From Pedobacter steynii (GTDB lineage Bacteria > Bacteroidota > Bacteroidia > Sphingobacteriales > Sphingobacteriaceae), in assembly GCF_900103665.1 (NCBI RefSeq), contig NZ_FNGY01000001.1, positions 930,001 through 994,000 on the forward strand: DNA of 64,000 bases, read 5' to 3'. The notes under the pieces were generated by a model that did no database searches, was not told the origin of the DNA, and worked only from the letters and a program-made list of their open reading frames with translations. Positions 9,505-64,000 of this stretch are shown piece by piece. The translations under genes were made by a program, and so were the position numbers. Each line of letters opens with the position of its first letter. Position 1 is the first letter of the stretch.

Positions 9505-9550
9505 GGTTATAGTGTGAAAATTTTCAAAAGAACATTAAAAAAATAAATTT

Positions 9551-9868
9551 ATGAATCTAATAAAAAAACTACCCTTGATGGCCTTCGTATTAGGTCTCGG
9601 GTTTATGATCGCAATGAGCTCATTTAAAGGAGAATTGAAAAGGTCAACTATTTATTATTATAACCATCCTAGCAGCAATTTTGTAGATATGAAAGTACCG
9701 GGGAATTGGGATACAGTACAGGATCCGGATTTCATCTGTGACGCAAATACCTTTGTTCCTTGCTCTGTAAATGTGCCGGATGGAGTATCTATTAATACTT
9801 ATTTATCAAGTTATAATACTTTACCGGCACTTCTTGTAGCCTCAAATGATAGAAGAGATAGTCGATAG
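9551..9868 (+). CDS. Small secreted protein, DUF6520-like
   Basis: A 105-aa protein with an N-terminal hydrophobic signal (LPLMAFVLGLGFMIAMSS) and a short mature part with two cysteines (FICDANTFVPCSV). The signal resembles the DUF6520 peptides that in Bacteroidota are typically encoded immediately after MauE-like membrane proteins, as here. DUF6520 has no known function. The assignment rests mainly on the signal sequence and neighbourhood. Its stop is six bases from the convergent stop of the SusD gene. Confidence 0.6.
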   Translation: MNLIKKLPLMAFVLGLGFMIAMSSFKGELKRSTIYYYNHPSSNFVDMKVPGNWDTVQDPDFICDANTFVPCSVNVPDGVSINTYLSSYNTLPALLVASNDRRDSR

Positions 9869-52452: not shown

Positions 52453-53091
52453 CTAATCAAGCAATTCGGGATGATGCCGGGTAATGTAAGCCAATGCTTT
52501 TGTTTCAAACACCACACCGATCGATTCCATTAATTTCTCCAGATACTCATTGATTTCCAAAATCACAGGACCGATCTCTTCATTTTTTACTACACTGCTC
52601 TCTTCCCTGGAACTGATGAGGAGTTGATCTAGAATGTCGTACCACTCCGTTAAACTCCTATAATCAAAAAACTCCTCAAAGAAAATATTTACGTCATTTA
52701 CTTCGTTTCCTACAAGCTTGCGGAAGTATAAATGCGGACAGCTTAAAATTTGCTCATTTTCCAGGTAATAGCCAAAACAGGCTTTAACATTTCTGTAAAC
52801 TGGATGATCTTTTTCTATTTTGAAGTTCTCCTCGCTGGTATATAGAATATGAGCAATTTCCAATAGTTTAATACATTGATGATGGAGTAATTCAAATTCG
52901 TCCGGGTCTCCAAATTGGTCATTCGACAATGAGCAGGCTGTTTTAATCCAATTGAATACTTCCATCCGGAAATCCTCAATATATGCATCAAGGATCCAGA
53001 ATTTTCCGATACCATATAGCGGATAGTCGATTTCATAACTGGTTAATTGTCTGAAGTTTGTTTCTGATAAAGTTGTTGTTGCTGTTTTCAT
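52453..53091 (-). CDS. Uncharacterised protein, member A of local family
   Basis: A 212-aa soluble helical protein. It shares with its neighbours at 53126-53725 and 63423-64000 the blocks KLLEIAHILYTSEENFK, ILSCPHLYFRKLV, FFEEFFDYRSLTEWYDIL and a final helix EINEYLEKLMESIG. No named family was recognised; it is not obviously a nuclease, toxin or DNA-binding protein. Transcribed leftward with the second copy 34 bases upstream. Confidence 0.75.
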   Translation of the reverse strand: MKTATTTLSETNFRQLTSYEIDYPLYGIGKFWILDAYIEDFRMEVFNWIKTACSLSNDQFGDPDEFELLHHQCIKLLEIAHILYTSEENFKIEKDHPVYRNVKACFGYYLENEQILSCPHLYFRKLVGNEVNDVNIFFEEFFDYRSLTEWYDILDQLLISSREESSVVKNEEIGPVILEINEYLEKLMESIGVVFETKALAYITRHHPELLD

Positions 53092-53125
53092 GTTATTGTT
53101 TTTTTTGTGAGTGGATAAATTGGTT

Positions 53126-53725
53126 TTAATTCTGAATTTCTTTAGTTCTGCAGCTTCGTTCGTATATCAGCCAACTGGCTTCGTAAAGCTTTTGAAGATT
53201 TTCATAAACGATGATGATTTCATCCTTCATCAGGAGTTCATCGTTGCAGAATGGGCTTAAGGCTTCGCTCATCCAGTACTGCAGAATACGCCTATAGTCT
53301 GTTAGTTTATATTGCTTAAATAGCTTGCTAAACAGTATCCCTGGATTCCAGAGTTCTTCCATGCTCAATACAGTTGGATAAAATTTGATTTCCTGCTGCT
53401 CTTTGTTGAGGAACCCTTCTCTGAGTGCTTTCTCTGATTCATCCAGGTTGAAATTGTTTGGAGTGCTTTTTTCTCTCAATAGCCAGGCGGCCTCTAATAG
53501 CTTTATAGTCATTCTGTATTGAAGGAATAAGTCTGATGGGCAATTCCTTCTCCTGTATGTTTTATTAGTGAGTAGGAGGTTTCTCCAATACTTAAGCTGT
53601 TCCAGCTGAGCAGGAAGGTGATCATGAAGACAAAAGTCTTTCAATATAACCTTGGGGTTTTCTATTTCACTTTGGCTGAGGTTATAAAGTAGAAGTGTTT
53701 TTGTTGAAATGTTTTTAGTCTTCAT
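53126..53725 (-). CDS. Uncharacterised protein, member B of local family
   Basis: About 199 aa from the ATG at 53725 (MKTKNIST); an upstream ATG at 53782 gives 218 aa. Similar in order to member A and C: LSQSEIENPKVILKDFCLH, MTIKLLEAAWLLREKS, LSMEELWNPGILFSKLFKQY, KLTDYRRILQYWMSEAL and VYENLQKLYEASWLI. Member C shares the same IxNPxxFLxxFC start. Divergent from the Xre regulator that starts 166 bases away, which is a plausible controller. Confidence 0.75.
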   Translation of the reverse strand: MKTKNISTKTLLLYNLSQSEIENPKVILKDFCLHDHLPAQLEQLKYWRNLLLTNKTYRRRNCPSDLFLQYRMTIKLLEAAWLLREKSTPNNFNLDESEKALREGFLNKEQQEIKFYPTVLSMEELWNPGILFSKLFKQYKLTDYRRILQYWMSEALSPFCNDELLMKDEIIIVYENLQKLYEASWLIYERSCRTKEIQN

Positions 53726-53861
53726 GATTTCCCTATTTTTGTAGTACGAATAGATATCATTTGGAACTTCTAACCCATGCAATTTTTATTCTATTTAAGT
53801 TTTAGTTAATTAAAATACAAAAATATATCCTTATTGTGTTATTTATGTCGTTATGTTTTAG

Positions 53862-55033: not shown

Positions 55034-56077
55034 CTAATTCAACATGTCCCATTCCGATTTTAATATCGCAAACTGATATTCATTGACCCATCTGTCATTT
55101 ACAAACCGATTTTCAATAAAATAACCTTCCTTTTTAAAGCCCAGATCTTTTAATAGGTTGATCATTTCCTTGCTATCTGCGCTCAGCTTCAGAACAACCC
55201 GATTAACCTTTGCTTTTTTAAATAAAAGAGACAGTGTTGAAGACAGAGATTCTTTTATATTCATTTGTTCGTTAGGAAAGGAATTGATAATGAGTTCCGC
55301 AATGCGGTCATCATGCTGACTGAGTTTTAACTCGCAGTCTCCGCTTACTTTTTTGCTAAACTCATCCTGCAACAAATGAACAAATTCAGGAATATCTTTA
55401 ATTTCAGAGGTGCTATCATCTGCAATTCTTGCTTTACGGTCTAAGTTCAAAGAGCCCACGTGTACACTATTGGAGATCTCTCTGCCATCCTCTTTAGCAA
55501 AAGAGATATAGGCTTCCATACGCTCATTTATATGTTGCGGACTAATAGCAAGTACATCTTTTCCTTCCACTCTTTTTGCCCCGATCAATTGACAACAGGT
55601 CTCTTTTAAATCAGGAAAATAAATCACCAGCATTGCACGATCATTATGATACTGGCTCACCGGGATGTCCGATTTCTCCCAGTTAAAGGTGATTTTCTCG
55701 GCCGTTTGACTGATGCCTGGATTAACAGCCACAGGAAGTGTTCCCATGCTCATTAATACTTTTGTATAATCCAGACTGATGTTTGGATATACTCCCTGAA
55801 GTGCATTCTTTTTATTATAAGAAACTGCTTCATTGTATTCGTTTCTGTCTGTTCCCGCAACGGCAAGGCGGAATCCTATACGGATCGCATGGATTGAGGG
55901 CTTGAGGATCTCATTTACGATCTTCATCTTTTCACAGTTTGCCTTTCTTGCCGGGGTAAGCGGTTTAGTGCTTTTGCCAATCATTCTGATGACATGTTTG
56001 CCTTTTAAGGTATAACCTACCAGGTTGCCGACTCTGCCATGGAATCCGCCAAATAACCCATTTCTTAATGTTCCCAT
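55034..56077 (-). CDS. DUF6266 protein fused to GNAT-like acetyltransferase segment
   Basis: A 347-aa protein. Residues about 1-215 are DUF6266: NGLFGGFHGRVGNLVGYTLK, KAMs-like KGKHVIRMIGKSTKPLTPAR and GVYPNISLDYTKVLMSMG. Residues about 235-347 have a GNAT (RimJ/RimL) pattern: AELIINSFPNEQ, VNRVVLKLSADSKEMINLLK, DLGFKKEGYFIENRF and NEYQFAILKSEW. The combination is unusual and may indicate that DUF6266 acts as a carrier or targeting module. It stands apart, upstream of 650 bases without a gene. Confidence 0.75.
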   Translation of the reverse strand: MGTLRNGLFGGFHGRVGNLVGYTLKGKHVIRMIGKSTKPLTPARKANCEKMKIVNEILKPSIHAIRIGFRLAVAGTDRNEYNEAVSYNKKNALQGVYPNISLDYTKVLMSMGTLPVAVNPGISQTAEKITFNWEKSDIPVSQYHNDRAMLVIYFPDLKETCCQLIGAKRVEGKDVLAISPQHINERMEAYISFAKEDGREISNSVHVGSLNLDRKARIADDSTSEIKDIPEFVHLLQDEFSKKVSGDCELKLSQHDDRIAELIINSFPNEQMNIKESLSSTLSLLFKKAKVNRVVLKLSADSKEMINLLKDLGFKKEGYFIENRFVNDRWVNEYQFAILKSEWDMLN

Positions 56078-56724: not shown

Positions 56725-56967
56725 ATGAAATCGATTTTGAGAAGAATAGAAATGAAAATAGAAAGATATTTTAATTCCAGAGAAAGGCAGATGCAAGCAG
56801 ATCATGTCCCATTACAGTTAGACGAATGGTTCGATAAGCTCCAGGTAATGCAATTGTTAAGCATCAGCGCAAGTACTTTTTACAGGTTGGAAAAAGTGTC
56901 CAACTGGAAAATGCAACAGGTTGGTAAGAGAAAGTATTACCTTAAATCGTCAATTTTGGGTGCTTAG
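56725..56967 (+). CDS. Excisionase-like HTH protein
   Basis: An 80-aa protein ending in a winged HTH of the excisionase/MerR-like helix_turn_helix_17 type: QLDEWFDKLQVMQLLSISAS, FYRLEKVSNWKMQQVGKRKY and YLKSSILGA. Such proteins control excision of mobile elements or transcription. It is followed by a terminator at 57004-57029 and then by the phased repeats before the DUF6266/lysis cluster, so it may act there. Confidence 0.75.
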   Translation: MKSILRRIEMKIERYFNSRERQMQADHVPLQLDEWFDKLQVMQLLSISASTFYRLEKVSNWKMQQVGKRKYYLKSSILGA

Positions 56968-57003: not shown

Positions 57004-57029
57004 ATGCCTGTGCTGATTAGCACAGGCAT
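57004..57029 (+). terminator. Factor-independent terminator after HTH gene
   Basis: ATGCCTGTGCT pairs perfectly with AGCACAGGCAT around a GATT loop, followed by TTTTTGATTT. It lies 37 bases after the excisionase-like stop. Confidence 0.85.
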
Positions 57030-57253: not shown

Positions 57254-57901
57254 ATGGGATTTTTAGAAGGAGGTCCATTCTTCCACCTCACAGGAAAAGT
57301 AGGAAACAACGTTGGCCGCCGTGTCAAAAACAAAAATGTATTTTCAATGAAGCCAGGAAAATCATCAAAGCCTGCTACGAAAGAGCAAGTTAACCATCGT
57401 ACCGGCTTTGGTCTGATCATGAAGCAAGTGAGTTTGTTCAGCGCAGCAATTGTGATTGGATTCAAAAACAATAAGGAAGATGTTGCTCCTGGAAATGCAG
57501 CGCTGGCTTACAACTTAAAACATGGGCTTACAGGAACTGGGCCAAATTATAGCATCGATCATGAAAATTTTTCGATCAGTAGGGGCAAGTTGGCTCCTGT
57601 TCAAAAACCGACAGTGGCGAGTGTCGCCGGAGAAACAGCAACACTGGAATTTTCCTGGACGGTAAGTTCCAGCCATGTCATCAGTAATGACACCGATGTA
57701 GTGAAGGTCTATATCTATACGCCAGAGGCAGAACTAGTCGTCGTCAATCCGGTAATTGTAGTACGGACAGCTTTAAAGCTTAAGATGGCAGTTCCATTTG
57801 ACTATATCGGTCTGCCACTTCATTGCTATATGATGTTGGTCACTGCTGATGGAAAGATAGTTTCAAATTCCCAATATTGTGGAAGCGTTACTTTAACCTA
57901 A
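57254..57901 (+). CDS. DUF6266 family protein
   Basis: A 215-aa protein of DUF6266: LTGKVGNNVGRRVKNKNVFS near the start, IVIGFKNNKEDVAPGNAALA and YNLKHGLTGTGPNYSIDHEN. The C-terminal part is beta-rich (VVKVYIYTPEAELVVVNPVI), like an immunoglobulin or carrier-type sandwich. Function of DUF6266 is not known. It opens the rightward cluster with holin-like, endolysin-like and lipoprotein genes; a terminator at 57910-57940 follows it, so it may be transcribed separately from them. Confidence 0.85.
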   Translation: MGFLEGGPFFHLTGKVGNNVGRRVKNKNVFSMKPGKSSKPATKEQVNHRTGFGLIMKQVSLFSAAIVIGFKNNKEDVAPGNAALAYNLKHGLTGTGPNYSIDHENFSISRGKLAPVQKPTVASVAGETATLEFSWTVSSSHVISNDTDVVKVYIYTPEAELVVVNPVIVVRTALKLKMAVPFDYIGLPLHCYMMLVTADGKIVSNSQYCGSVTLT

Positions 57902-57909
57902 TCAATCGA

Positions 57910-57940
57910 TCACCCGCTGTGCCGTAAGGACAGCGGGTGA
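57910..57940 (+). terminator. Terminator after DUF6266 gene
   Basis: TCACCCGCTGT and ACAGCGGGTGA are perfectly complementary around nine bases; T-rich sequence follows (TTATTCCT). It lies eight bases after the stop codon and separates the DUF6266 gene from the lysis-like genes. Confidence 0.75.
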
Positions 57941-57968
57941 TTATTCCTACAATTTAATAGATTTTATT

Positions 57969-58340
57969 ATGAAAAATATAGGTGTAAAAAAGCCTCATAT
58001 CATGACGGCCTATGCGTTAGAAATTGGTTTTTTATTGTTCGTCATGGTTTTATTGTGGCCATTGGGACAACATTTGATCATAAGTGCGGATGTAACCGCA
58101 GGATATATTGATCCTGGCATCTGGCTCCTGGTCTTGCTGAGTCTGATCTCCTTTCTGCTGGTTGCAGGACTAAGCTTTTGGTTATTACAAAGGTTATGGC
58201 TGGGATTGGGCTTGCCGGTAATAGAAGTAATGGTTTTACAATTTAAAACTTTGGACTCATGGAAACAATTAAGCTTTTACTGGGCATCATTTGTATCCCT
58301 GTTATTTGCAGCAGTGGGATGCCTGATCGCGATTTGTTAG
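57969..58340 (+). CDS. Small membrane protein, holin-like
   Basis: A 123-aa protein with three membrane helices (MTAYALEIGFLLFVMVLLW, WLLVLLSLISFLLVAGLSFW and FYWASFVSLLFAAVGCLIAI) and a short charged start, the size and topology of class I/II phage holins, though sequence identity to a holin family was not recognised. Its last 82 bases overlap, in another frame, the start of the endolysin-like gene, so the last helix and the signal peptide of the next protein share DNA. Confidence 0.7.
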   Translation: MKNIGVKKPHIMTAYALEIGFLLFVMVLLWPLGQHLIISADVTAGYIDPGIWLLVLLSLISFLLVAGLSFWLLQRLWLGLGLPVIEVMVLQFKTLDSWKQLSFYWASFVSLLFAAVGCLIAIC

Positions 58341-58810
58341 GCGATTCACTTGCCGAGGAAAAAATTAGAGTATCTGTACTTGCGATTGCGGAAAGGGAAC
58401 TCGGAGTCAGGGAAAAAACCGGAAAAAATGATGGAGAAAGGGTGGAGCACTACCTAAAATATATAGGCTTACCAAAAGGCCATGCCTGGTGTGGTGCCTA
58501 TACAAGCTGGGTGTACGGACAGGCAGGTCTTTCTAAACCCAGGACAGGCTGGACACCAGCACTGTTTCCGGCAAACCGGCTCACCAGAAAGCCAAAACCT
58601 GCAGATCTTTTTGGAATCTATTTTCCATCATTGAAGCGGATTGCACATACAGGGTTTGTCGTAAGTATCAAATCAGACTGGGCACTAACAACGGAAGGCA
58701 ACACCAATATAGAAGGGGGCAGAGAAGGCGATGGGGTTTATAAAAAGCGCAGACATCTGCGCACCATCGCCAAATTTGCCAACTGGATAGGAAAGGAGAA
58801 TAAACGATGA
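58259..58810 (+). CDS. Endolysin-like CHAP/TIGR02594 protein
   Basis: A 183-aa protein with a signal-like start (KLLLGIICIPVICSSG) followed by a TIGR02594/CHAP-type domain: LAIAERELGVREKTGKNDGE, LPKGHAWCGAYTSWVYGQAG with the catalytic Cys, LKRIAHTGFVVSIKSDWALT with the catalytic His, and TEGNTNIEGGREGDGVYKKR. Such enzymes cut peptidoglycan peptide bonds. The signal suggests export by Sec, as in secreted endolysins. It overlaps the membrane protein gene by 82 bases and the next gene by four. Confidence 0.82.
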   Translation: METIKLLLGIICIPVICSSGMPDRDLLGDSLAEEKIRVSVLAIAERELGVREKTGKNDGERVEHYLKYIGLPKGHAWCGAYTSWVYGQAGLSKPRTGWTPALFPANRLTRKPKPADLFGIYFPSLKRIAHTGFVVSIKSDWALTTEGNTNIEGGREGDGVYKKRRHLRTIAKFANWIGKENKR

Positions 58811-59316
58811 AGATGTGCAGCTTATTTTTAATTCTCGGCCAGCTGTTCTTATCAGCATGCGGGATGCTTCATAAAACAACAAAGAACAGTTCCGTTTCTA
58901 ATTTGAAAGAGAAGGAGAAAATTGAGATTGAGGATCAATCAAAATACCTGCATCAGCGAGAGATCAAATCCTTAACCATCAGAAGTGATTCTTTAAGTTC
59001 TTTTTCACAGATAGAAATATGGCCAAAAGGAAAGTTTGATTTCTCCCCCGGGCAGGGTTTTTCCGGACAGGCAGATAAAGTATTGATCTATAAAAAGACA
59101 AAGTCTGGCAACAGCAGCATCGAAAAAAAAGAGGAAGTAGCGCAGCGTACCAAAGTATCCAACAAGGCCGAATCCAGGATAAAAGCAACAGATCTTTCCC
59201 GAAAAGATACAGAAAAGAAAAGCTCGCCACTATCTGTCTGGCAATGGCTTCTGGTTCTGATTGGGGTACTTTTCCTCTGGTACATTTCAAAATATCAATT
59301 AAATAATCACTCCTAA
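58807..59316 (+). CDS. Lipoprotein with C-terminal membrane anchor, spanin-like
   Basis: A 169-aa protein with a lipobox signal (LFLILGQLFLSACGMLHK, LSAC), a periplasmic polar middle (about 25-145, charged and low-complexity: KEKEKIEIEDQSKYLHQREI, TKSGNSSIEKKEEVAQRTK) and a C-terminal membrane helix WQWLLVLIGVLFLWYISKY. An outer-membrane lipid anchor plus inner-membrane helix is the layout of unimolecular spanins, which fuse the two membranes at the last step of phage lysis. Start overlaps the endolysin-like stop by four bases. The same architecture could belong to a structural linker. Confidence 0.75.
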   Translation: MKMCSLFLILGQLFLSACGMLHKTTKNSSVSNLKEKEKIEIEDQSKYLHQREIKSLTIRSDSLSSFSQIEIWPKGKFDFSPGQGFSGQADKVLIYKKTKSGNSSIEKKEEVAQRTKVSNKAESRIKATDLSRKDTEKKSSPLSVWQWLLVLIGVLFLWYISKYQLNNHS

Positions 59317-59328
59317 ATTTTTAAAAAC

Positions 59329-60219
59329 ATGGCAAAAATAACAGGTGGTATTTTCGGAAACATTTCCGGAAAGATCGGAGGACTGGTGTTCTCTACAAGA
59401 AACAATCAGACGGAGGTAAGAAGCCTCCCAAAAAAGTATGAAGGACCGGTAACTGAGGCTGCGTTAAGTACCAGAGCAAAATTAAAGCTAGTCGCGGGAT
59501 TTTTAAGACTGTTTACTTTTTTTATAAGGATAGGATATCCTAAGAAGCCGAAACAGCGCATGAGTGCATTTAATGTTGCATTTTCGAAAAATTATCGATG
59601 GATCATCAGTGGAGCATATCCGAATCTGGAAATTGATTACCCGAAGGTAACTTTAAGCAAAGGAAATTTGGATGGATTGAAGGGTCTGATGGTACATCAG
59701 GTTGATCATCAGTTGTTTAATTTGAGATGGAATTCTAGCGTAGAATCGTATCAATCACCGGCTCCTGATTGCTGTGACCGTATTTACTGCATCCTTTATG
59801 ATCCTATAGGTAAACAGGTTGTTGAAGTGGCTGCAGGTGCAATGAGAAGTGATAATTATTTCCTGTTCTACCTGCCTGAAAACATGGTAGGAAAGAAAAT
59901 CCATCTTTATCTATTTCTGCGTTCTTCCTGGAAAAAGGAGGTGTCCCGGACACAATACAGATGTCTGGACTTGCGGGAACCCGACACCAATGAAAAAGAA
60001 AGGAATTTTATAAGCTGCTGTAAGACTATTCCCTGTGAGGGTGCAAAAGCAAAAAAGGAAAGTCTGGGGAAAGTAACAAAACATCTGGTGATTCCAAAAG
60101 CTGTTGTCCCGAAAAATAAGTCAGGAAAGATAGGGCGCTCCGTTCGTAATTATACACGCAATGTTTTGAACGAAGGGATTGGCAGCAGGCGAAAACCGAC
60201 ACGTCAAAAGAAACCTTAA
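59329..60219 (+). CDS. DUF6266 family protein with basic C-terminal tail
   Basis: A 296-aa protein: DUF6266 core (about 1-215) with FGNISGKIGGLVFSTRNNQT, KPKQRMSAFNVAFSKNYRWI and SGAYPNLEIDYPKVTLSKGN, then a lysine- and arginine-rich tail (about 235-296; KNKSGKIGRSVRNYTRNVL, IGSRRKPTRQKKP) not present in the other two copies. The tail could bind nucleic acid or cell wall. It begins 12 bases after the lipoprotein gene, in the same operon. Confidence 0.8.
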   Translation: MAKITGGIFGNISGKIGGLVFSTRNNQTEVRSLPKKYEGPVTEAALSTRAKLKLVAGFLRLFTFFIRIGYPKKPKQRMSAFNVAFSKNYRWIISGAYPNLEIDYPKVTLSKGNLDGLKGLMVHQVDHQLFNLRWNSSVESYQSPAPDCCDRIYCILYDPIGKQVVEVAAGAMRSDNYFLFYLPENMVGKKIHLYLFLRSSWKKEVSRTQYRCLDLREPDTNEKERNFISCCKTIPCEGAKAKKESLGKVTKHLVIPKAVVPKNKSGKIGRSVRNYTRNVLNEGIGSRRKPTRQKKP

Positions 60220-60248
60220 TTTGATATTTAAGGGGATATAGATTAAAA

Positions 60249-60286
60249 AATTTCGGGCCTATGCAGTTCTGCATAGGCCCGAAATT
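60249..60286. terminator. Strong bidirectional terminator
   Basis: AATTTCGGGCCTATGCAG and its exact complement are separated by two bases, so the actual loop is TGCAGTTCTGCA-like within the stem top. It lies between the converging DUF6266 gene and the leader-peptide gene. Confidence 0.8.
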
Positions 60287-60312: not shown

Positions 60313-60531
60313 TTACTCCCCTGCATTAGATCCAATTACAGGCTCTTTAGAACCCCATGGAACTCCGCACGATATTTCGCCTCCTGCATATTGGATGTCA
60401 GCATAGTATTGACCATTAGTGTAGCTCCAGCCAACAATAGTGCCATGCGAAGAGCCACCACCTGGTAATTTTCCACCAAATACCTGGCTTTGCTGTTCTT
60501 TAGACAGCACATTAAAAGTTGTATTTTTCAT
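60313..60531 (-). CDS. Putative double-glycine leader peptide precursor
   Basis: A 72-aa small protein beginning MKNTTFNVLSKEQQSQVFGG, which fits a double-glycine leader (conserved hydrophobic and acidic positions before GG) cut by bacteriocin-type ABC transporters. The remainder is glycine-rich (LPGGGSSHGTIVGW, YADIQYAGGEISCGVPW) with one Cys. No transporter or maturation gene is in the window. The neighbour upstream on the same strand is an astacin-like protease. Confidence 0.6.
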   Translation of the reverse strand: MKNTTFNVLSKEQQSQVFGGKLPGGGSSHGTIVGWSYTNGQYYADIQYAGGEISCGVPWGSKEPVIGSNAGE

Positions 60532-63398: not shown

Positions 63399-63422
63399 GT
63401 TGTTTAGTTTTTAGTTTGACGA

Positions 63423-64000
63423 TTAATTTATTGATGCGGTGCTTTGCAGATAAATGACCGACTGGGTATTGTCAATCAGATAAATCACTTCAATCAGTTT
63501 CTCGATATATTCTTTGATGATGACCATCTCAGCTCCATCTTCAATCACTTCATCAATGGTTTGAGTACGGTGAGCATATTCCACAATCCGATCGAAGGTT
63601 AAGCGCCAGTCGTTGAGTGTTTTATAACTGAATAAATCCGTAAAGAAACAATTGGTATTTCTGATTTCCTCATGGGAGAGGTTTCTGAAATGGGAATTGA
63701 TGAGGGTATGGTAGTATTTAGAAAGATCTATTGTACAAGGAGTACATAGGGTAAGGTTCGCTGTAATAGAGTATTTTTCACCTCTTCTAAAGAATATATG
63801 TGCAACTTCTAAGAATTGAAGCAGGCATCGGTAATTATAATGATAATCTTCCGGATTTCCATGCTTTTTGGAAGAACATGCAGAACGAATGAGGTTGAGG
63901 ATTTCTATTCGGAAGGTTTCAATGTCGATGTCGCACCTGCAGAAGTATTCCAGAAATAGGTGAGGGTTGGAAATTTGCTCTTTGGTCAGTTGATGGTAGC
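63423..64000 (-). CDS. Uncharacterised protein, member C of local family, truncated by window edge
   Basis: An open frame from the right window edge to a stop at 63423-63425, about 192 codons. Shared blocks with members A and B: LTKEQISNPHLFLEYFCRCD, LQFLEVAHIFFRRGEKYS, LSHEEIRNTNCFFTDLFSY and KTLNDWRLTFDRIVEYAH, then EYIEKLIEVIYLI. No recognised family. The N-terminus lies outside. It is upstream of the deleted Xre gene, the same gene-pair as 53.1-54.4 kb. Confidence 0.7.
   Translation of the reverse strand, partial: YHQLTKEQISNPHLFLEYFCRCDIDIETFRIEILNLIRSACSSKKHGNPEDYHYNYRCLLQFLEVAHIFFRRGEKYSITANLTLCTPCTIDLSKYYHTLINSHFRNLSHEEIRNTNCFFTDLFSYKTLNDWRLTFDRIVEYAHRTQTIDEVIEDGAEMVIIKEYIEKLIEVIYLIDNTQSVIYLQSTASIN

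Follow-up and report, generated by a model that had tools for sequence, protein, structure and literature searches.

What does a set of phage-type lysis genes do in a bacterial genome when no prophage surrounds it? This question is raised by positions 57254-60219 of the window (the whole 64,000-nucleotide stretch of the Pedobacter steynii genome that was analyzed), where five genes follow one another on the same strand: a DUF6266 gene, a holin-like gene, a gene for a CHAP-type endolysin, a gene for a lipoprotein with a C-terminal transmembrane (TM) segment, and another DUF6266 gene. A sequence-only reading of this locus had listed open reading frames (ORFs) and coordinates, with which our own ORF check agrees:

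57254-57901, plus strand: DUF6266 protein of 215 amino acids (aa), putative cargo (Pfam DUF6266 E=8e-29; AF2 model; FN3 fold matches)
57969-58340, plus strand: holin-like membrane protein, 123 aa (family recurs in standalone, non-prophage loci and in viral contigs)
58259-58810, plus strand: CHAP/TIGR02594-like endolysin, 183 aa (PHROG endolysin E=2e-16; conserved Cys/His/Glu/Asn)
58807-59316, plus strand: unimolecular spanin (u-spanin)-like lipoprotein, 169 aa, with lipobox Cys18, a linker, and a C-terminal TM segment (alignment)
59329-60219, plus strand: second DUF6266 protein, 296 aa, with a basic C-terminal tail (Pfam E=4e-22)

Judging from gene content, this is a phage-type lysis cassette that is conserved outside prophages and coupled near-constantly to a gene for an FN3-fold protein of about 210 aa. 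For its function we lean, with somewhat more belief than doubt, toward a domesticated phage lysis cassette, similar to a type 10 secretion system (T10SS), that would release the co-encoded FN3-fold protein.

The coupling was seen in a comparison of 85 loci. Eighty of them were chosen, among the matches listed, for their endolysin homologues in the bacterial family (Sphingobacteriaceae), three belong to the window genome, and two (L077 and L078) came from a DUF6266 query; the loci are not independent, since several genomes gave more than one. A locus was called prophage-like when at least four flanking genes had viral-contig matches, a cut chosen after the counts had been seen. Only four loci are of this kind (L114, L117, L118, and L216), and all four lack DUF6266 as well as two other partner families, an FN3-domain family (FNX) and a family of 252-aa proteins (K252). 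With 81 of the 85 loci not prophage-like, homologues of the three middle genes are clearly not confined to full prophages; such a confinement was what the sequence-only reading had named as refuting it. These 81 standalone loci carry the holin (75), the endolysin (80), and the spanin-like gene (67). A partner gene lies on the same strand in 75 of them (DUF6266 in 58, FNX in 15, the 252-aa gene in 2), never two types together, and 60/81 hold holin, endolysin, spanin-like, and partner genes all at once. The partner count is 73/79 without the two loci from the DUF6266 query and 70/76 with family loci only. From 35 copies in 8.06 Mb, we estimate that chance would place about 0.02 same-strand DUF6266 genes within 5 kb of a locus; the set at 57254-60219 is no chance cluster. 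At the genome level, among 251 genomes of the family, the endolysin was found in 71, DUF6266 in 111, and both in 66, against about 31 expected (Fisher p 2e-24, kinship ignored). Five endolysin genomes are without DUF6266: three have prophage-like loci (G131, G162, and G218), and in G035 and G203 (one locus examined in each) the 252-aa gene stands before the holin.

We then turn to the lysis proteins themselves. The holin-like protein has no meaningful family match in profile searches (best E 0.13). It had been described as a three-helix holin-like protein; the holin-like character is kept, while a hydropathy scan gave four segments for the window copy instead of three (relatives mostly have three or four, some two). 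The endolysin gene overlaps the holin gene by 82 nucleotides (nt) in the window, and the same 82-nt overlap was found in 61 of the 67 standalone pairs measured. The endolysin matches PHROG endolysin families (E=2e-16 and 2e-8), and CHAP with an E-value of 0.002, below the Pfam cut-off. Residues Cys78, His130, Glu146, and Asn148 are invariant in nine aligned sequences, including the window's; which of these are catalytic we take from what is generally held of CHAP enzymes. The PHROG matches and the invariant Cys78 and His130 are in line with the endolysin-like Cys/His enzyme proposed before, and a hydrophobic stretch at the N-terminus provides a candidate export signal. In the spanin-like protein, the lipobox Cys18 is invariant in 18/18 aligned sequences, again including the window's, and a hydrophobic segment lies at the C-terminus, as expected for the lipoprotein with a C-terminal membrane helix that had been postulated. 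A lipoprotein signal and a C-terminal TM segment in one chain correspond to the layout of a unimolecular spanin, with a predicted fusion activity. PADLOC gave no defense-system match among eight proteins, and a defense system was rejected as a candidate on this ground.

Where the lysis genes come from was addressed with viral contigs of IMG/VR. A scan with the endolysin alignment gave 163 relatives, of which 80 were kept (L119-L198; classed as viral, not each checked). With an enlarged profile, the holin family is present in 58 of these (56 with the earlier profile); 24 contain the spanin-like family. Of 52 viral holin/endolysin pairs, 18 overlap by 82 nt and 13 by 79 nt (31/52 either). The viral cassettes are thus similar to the window's in holin and endolysin families, in overlap and, for some, in a u-spanin-like gene, but DUF6266 was found in 0/80 of these endolysin-bearing contigs. 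In a tree built from 159 endolysin rows, 78 of them standalone and 81 viral or prophage (FastTree; two standalone endolysins omitted by length; deep branching tentative), the standalone/viral label changes four times, compared to a shuffled mean of 53. One supported clade is made of 44 standalone rows, and a second group contains 34 standalone rows with the viral rows L119 and L124 inside or beside it, so that the standalone endolysins appear to form mainly two groups set among those of viruses. DUF6266 and FN3 cassettes occur in each of the two; therefore, the partner families were probably exchanged more than once. An FNX match in viral contig L126 is a 611-aa lipoprotein and probably reflects a shared FN3 domain. 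Shared homologues, the shared overlap, and the tree indicate that the standalone cassettes descend from phage lysis cassettes, which were probably domesticated more than once. Among annotated phage records, 77 endolysin matches were obtained, mostly from Streptomyces phages and all below 60% identity. Because annotated phages give distant endolysins only and no holin, the phage origin of the holin/endolysin pair rests on the IMG/VR contigs.

The flanks of the cassettes are a different matter. Among the 824 genes flanking the first 45 loci, 37 match viral-contig proteins, 35 of them in three prophages; the control, viral contigs against each other, gave 889/1573. Over all loci, flanking genes with such matches number 0-2 in the 81 standalone loci (0 in 74) and 4-13 in the four prophage-like ones. 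None of the 17 non-cassette genes at 50-64 kb of the window matches proteins of the 80 viral contigs, and the window genome has no Terminase_6N or Phage_portal match, with controls positive in 6 and 4 of 14 genomes, respectively. The claim that no phage structural genes lie around the set is upheld to this extent, capsid and tail families and window positions 1-50000 having been outside the scan. Taken with the partner gene at nearly all standalone loci, the flanks, nearly free of viral matches, also support the idea of a lysis unit tied to DUF6266.

The cassette appears to be maintained. We obtained dN/dS values of 0.11-0.43 in all 19 gene pairs computed between the window and L077 (Pedobacter sp. 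KBW06), L078 (P. caeni), and the C33 copy, those of holin and endolysin being affected by the overlap of the two genes; these values indicate purifying selection on the cassette genes. Gene order in L077 and L078 is the same as in the window, including the second DUF6266 gene in the same place, apart from the spanin-like gene that L077 lacks. A mobile unit with terminal repeats was rejected: when the window locus was compared with the other two copies by blastn, there was homology at the gene level and terminal repeats were not shared. Window stretches 63422-63998 and 59313-60247 are 86-91% identical to stretches of another copy, the C26 locus (685587-685866 and 688948-689524), whereas holin and endolysin of the two loci are just 50-54% identical, and of the second DUF6266 gene only the two ends are matched in C26, which suggests recombination and deletion.

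To which proteins are the lysis genes coupled? The DUF6266 proteins at 57254-57901, 59329-60219, and 55034-56077 score 101, 79, and 117 bits against a Pfam gathering cut-off of 23.4, and for the second the earlier description, DUF6266 with a basic tail, is accurate. The third (E=9e-34) had been mentioned along with the module; the gene is indeed present, but we do not consider it part of the operon because it lies on the opposite strand, falls among orphan copies on the DUF6266 tree, and has a weak GNAT-like tail. Structure prediction of DUF6266, which the sequence-only reading had suggested, gave for 57254-57901 a model (AF2, pLDDT 93) in which a beta/three-helix part at the N-terminus is followed by a C-terminal FN3 domain, and Foldseek returned FN3 fold matches (best E 6.6e-4). 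The three partner families are of similar size (about 210-250 aa). FNX was modeled as a helical N-terminal part followed by an FN3 domain (pLDDT 88, pTM 0.53); at this pTM the domain packing is unsure. Pfam fn3 matches one FNX member at E=1e-7 and others more weakly, and the Foldseek E-value is 6e-7. By eye, no signal peptide is seen in the cassette DUF6266 or FN3 partner proteins, and no enzymatic domain was found in the cassette copies scanned.

Both DUF6266 and FNX are multi-copy. In the window genome (8.06 Mb, 41 contigs), DUF6266 is matched 35 times, and a DUF6266 gene precedes each of the three holin/endolysin copies; FNX is absent from this genome. FNX has 31 matches in G019, 20 in G093, and 5-15 in five more genomes, and in these seven genomes an FNX gene lies within 2.6 kb on the same strand at 26 of the 30 listed endolysin places, a count made with listed places only (G019 13/17; G093 5/7) and part of the FNX matches. 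On the DUF6266 tree, lysis-linked copies cluster (9 changes between linked and orphan labels among 132 rows), and the label for a position directly upstream changes 20 times, compared to a shuffled mean of 40. A DUF6266 gene pair of the window genome (G000 C22:130996-132290, L047) groups with the cassette copies, with no cassette lysis gene adjoining, and may be what remains of a cassette after loss of its lysis genes. Many of this genome's orphan copies carry C-terminal extensions; six were scanned, and one of these contains a clear GNAT domain (Pfam E=1e-11). These extensions are variable in L006 and its relatives: one class is GNAT, and several others end in PG or PS. Four of the 20 further DUF6266 loci considered below (L239, L241, L244, and L258), with orphan copies, share an upstream gene of about 146-157 aa (...SNPHFFILNKGLNSGKPL... 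or similar), one member of which has no good NCBIfam match.

DUF6266 was also tried as a phage protein and rejected: the 57254 protein has no tblastn match in phage or plasmid collections, in addition to its absence from the viral contigs above. No PHROG match below E 0.2 was obtained for the two operon copies; weak PHROG acetyltransferase matches of the 55034 protein come from its tail. A fold search matched DUF6266 weakly, over the full length, to one viral protein without a name (A0A8S5RM31; TMq 0.52, E 3e-3). Across the phylum, DUF6266 occurs in 26/395 genomes and the holin profile matches in 4/395, only two of them convincing and both in the window's genus. Our literature search found no publication naming the DUF6266 family.

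The set had not been matched to a described system; it does fit a described kind, namely T10SSs or repurposed lysis cassettes. YenLC of Yersinia entomophaga and ChiWXYZ of Serratia marcescens are likewise clusters of holin, endolysin, and spanin genes outside a prophage, likely phage-derived (PMC10847048, PMC13284979), and the proteins released by T10SSs nearly all lack a signal sequence (PMC10847048). By sequence, the window operon is also such a cluster. It differs from YenLC and ChiWXYZ in belonging to another phylum (Bacteroidota), in its CHAP-type endolysin, in a spanin layout of one gene instead of two, in a gene for an FN3-fold protein inside the operon, and in often having several cassettes per genome. 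Release is lytic and carried out by a subpopulation of cells in Y. entomophaga (PMC10847048), though export without lysis was reported for Salmonella in 2026 (PMC13284979). The DLP12 lysis module of E. coli K12 is another case in which a host has retained lysis genes (PMC7918800). Unlike the window operon, that module is part of a defective prophage. To our knowledge, it has no FN3-type partner. Colicin operons offer another parallel: the gene of a cytoplasmic protein is co-transcribed with a lysis gene for release, and each lysis protein is one small lipoprotein. In contrast to these, the window operon has no recognized toxin domain or immunity gene. Our search of the literature on T10SSs and lysis cassettes, including Bacteroidetes, Pedobacter, and Sphingobacteriaceae and judged by titles and abstract openings, found no such unit described.

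If the operon is a T10SS-like release cassette, some cue would induce it, probably in few cells. The holin would permeabilize the inner membrane, the endolysin would cut peptidoglycan, and the u-spanin would disrupt or fuse membranes; the resulting burst (or leak) would free the co-encoded DUF6266 or FN3 protein, the putative cargo, and possibly dispersed DUF6266 paralogues in trans.

Around the operon, we observed the following features:

56725-56967, plus strand: helix-turn-helix (HTH, excisionase-like) gene, 80 aa (weak PHROG excisionase matches, best E=0.03)
57004-57029, plus strand: terminator-like hairpin with an 11-bp stem and a T run, separating the HTH gene from the operon (consensus scan)
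60249-60286, no strand assigned: terminator-like 17-pair hairpin with a T-run on the minus strand, directly past the operon

Because of the two terminator-like hairpins, the HTH gene is probably its own transcription unit. The consensus scan of the region gave 10 terminator sites vs. 5.5 expected, only a mild enrichment. Promoters of Bacteroidota follow a -33/-7 pattern; none was found in the locus, and the whole-window count of 7 is not clearly above the 4.5 expected by chance. Directly past the operon, a convergent 72-aa ORF (60313-60531, minus strand) has a double-glycine-like leader (...LSKEQQSQVFGG) and is a possible secreted peptide precursor; its sole NCBIfam match is bacteriocin-like (E=0.09, well under its cut-off). 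At 52453-53782 (minus strand), two adjoining genes have no Pfam or NCBIfam matches, and a similar gene was seen by eye close to the C26 cassette.

Several observations weigh against release of the FN3-fold protein by this cassette. Lysis and release are predicted from the genes. DUF6266 is often found without the lysis genes: the endolysin is unmatched in 45 of the 111 DUF6266 genomes, 30 of the window genome's 35 copies lie outside its three cassettes, and 20 of 20 further DUF6266 loci (19 outside the family) carry none of the three lysis families, one matching the 252-aa family and three the HTH family. A general tie of DUF6266 to lysis was rejected on the basis of these 20 loci, in which other kinds of lysis genes were not sought. 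The two refuting conditions named by the sequence-only reading thus came out differently: elsewhere, DUF6266 does have neighbors without these lysis families, while the three middle genes are not confined to prophages. The relation is one-way: the cassette predicts a DUF6266 or FN3 gene, and DUF6266 does not predict the cassette. Copies without lysis genes nearby might depend on release in trans or by some other route, or the role of DUF6266 might be a different one altogether. Within the cassettes, six of the 81 loci have no partner gene (L085, L087, L100, L108, L116, and L230, two of them at contig ends), and partner position varies, DUF6266 being directly before the holin in 50 loci and FNX in 4/15, otherwise mostly after the endolysin. 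In L077, positions 9545-9556 cleanly lack the spanin-like gene and DUF6266 follows the endolysin directly; several cassettes have stops or broken frames (e.g., L237). The endolysin may have its own export signal, and the holin is without match in annotated phage records. The HTH gene, a candidate regulator, is present on the same strand at most five genes away in just 38/81 standalone loci and here precedes a terminator-like hairpin. In one genome the endolysin is matched 17 times (in part perhaps by fragments of a single gene), which is odd for a suicide device.

The main rival, in our opinion unlikely, is that the DUF6266 and FN3 proteins control lysis as antiholin-like, timing, or sensing partners, mostly encoded first in the operon. 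The 50 loci with DUF6266 directly before the holin, the near-universal partner (75/81), and the lack of enzymatic domains in the cassette copies scanned would suit such a role, but it fits poorly with the many copies away from cassettes (35 DUF6266 in the window genome; 5-31 FNX in each of seven genomes), with the 11/15 loci where FNX is not directly before the holin, and with viral cassettes that have the same holin and no DUF6266. We find it improbable that the cassette is kept for explosive lysis, for release of membrane vesicles or DNA, or as unlinked lysis genes of a gene transfer agent (GTA), with the FN3 genes as accessories. Such functions have precedents: the DLP12 module modulates outer membrane vesicle production in E. 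coli K12 (PMC7918800), and GTAs are capable of lysing the host cell (PMC13236601). With Terminase_6N and Phage_portal matches absent from the window genome, a GTA of the tailed-phage type is unlikely, and this whole group of explanations leaves the recurrent FN3-fold partner unexplained.

A remnant of a prophage or phage satellite is very improbable and largely refuted. The viral relatives of the lysis genes, the weak excisionase-like match upstream, and the broken copies would be consistent with a remnant, and a phage-satellite remnant had been proposed for the window; against this stand the flank counts (0-2 vs. 4-13 viral-matching genes), the recurrence, the purifying selection, the same arrangement in two named Pedobacter genomes, and the viral contigs without DUF6266.

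Beyond the favored reading of a domesticated, T10SS-like release cassette, a wider proposal is tentative and rather doubtful. The bacterial family may use a two-part release strategy unlike known T10SSs, combining one to a dozen or so lysis cassettes per genome with families (up to some 30 copies) of FN3-fold lysis-released effectors (DUF6266 or helical-FN3). Some of these would carry C-terminal domains such as GNAT and act, for example, in competition or kin interaction, and FN3 families would have been recruited more than once in place of each other.

If the favored reading is correct, it would place a T10SS-like, phage-derived lysis operon in Bacteroidota and give DUF6266 a functional lead. 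The natural exchange of DUF6266 and FN3 partners with the same lysis genes makes the idea of lytic release directly testable.

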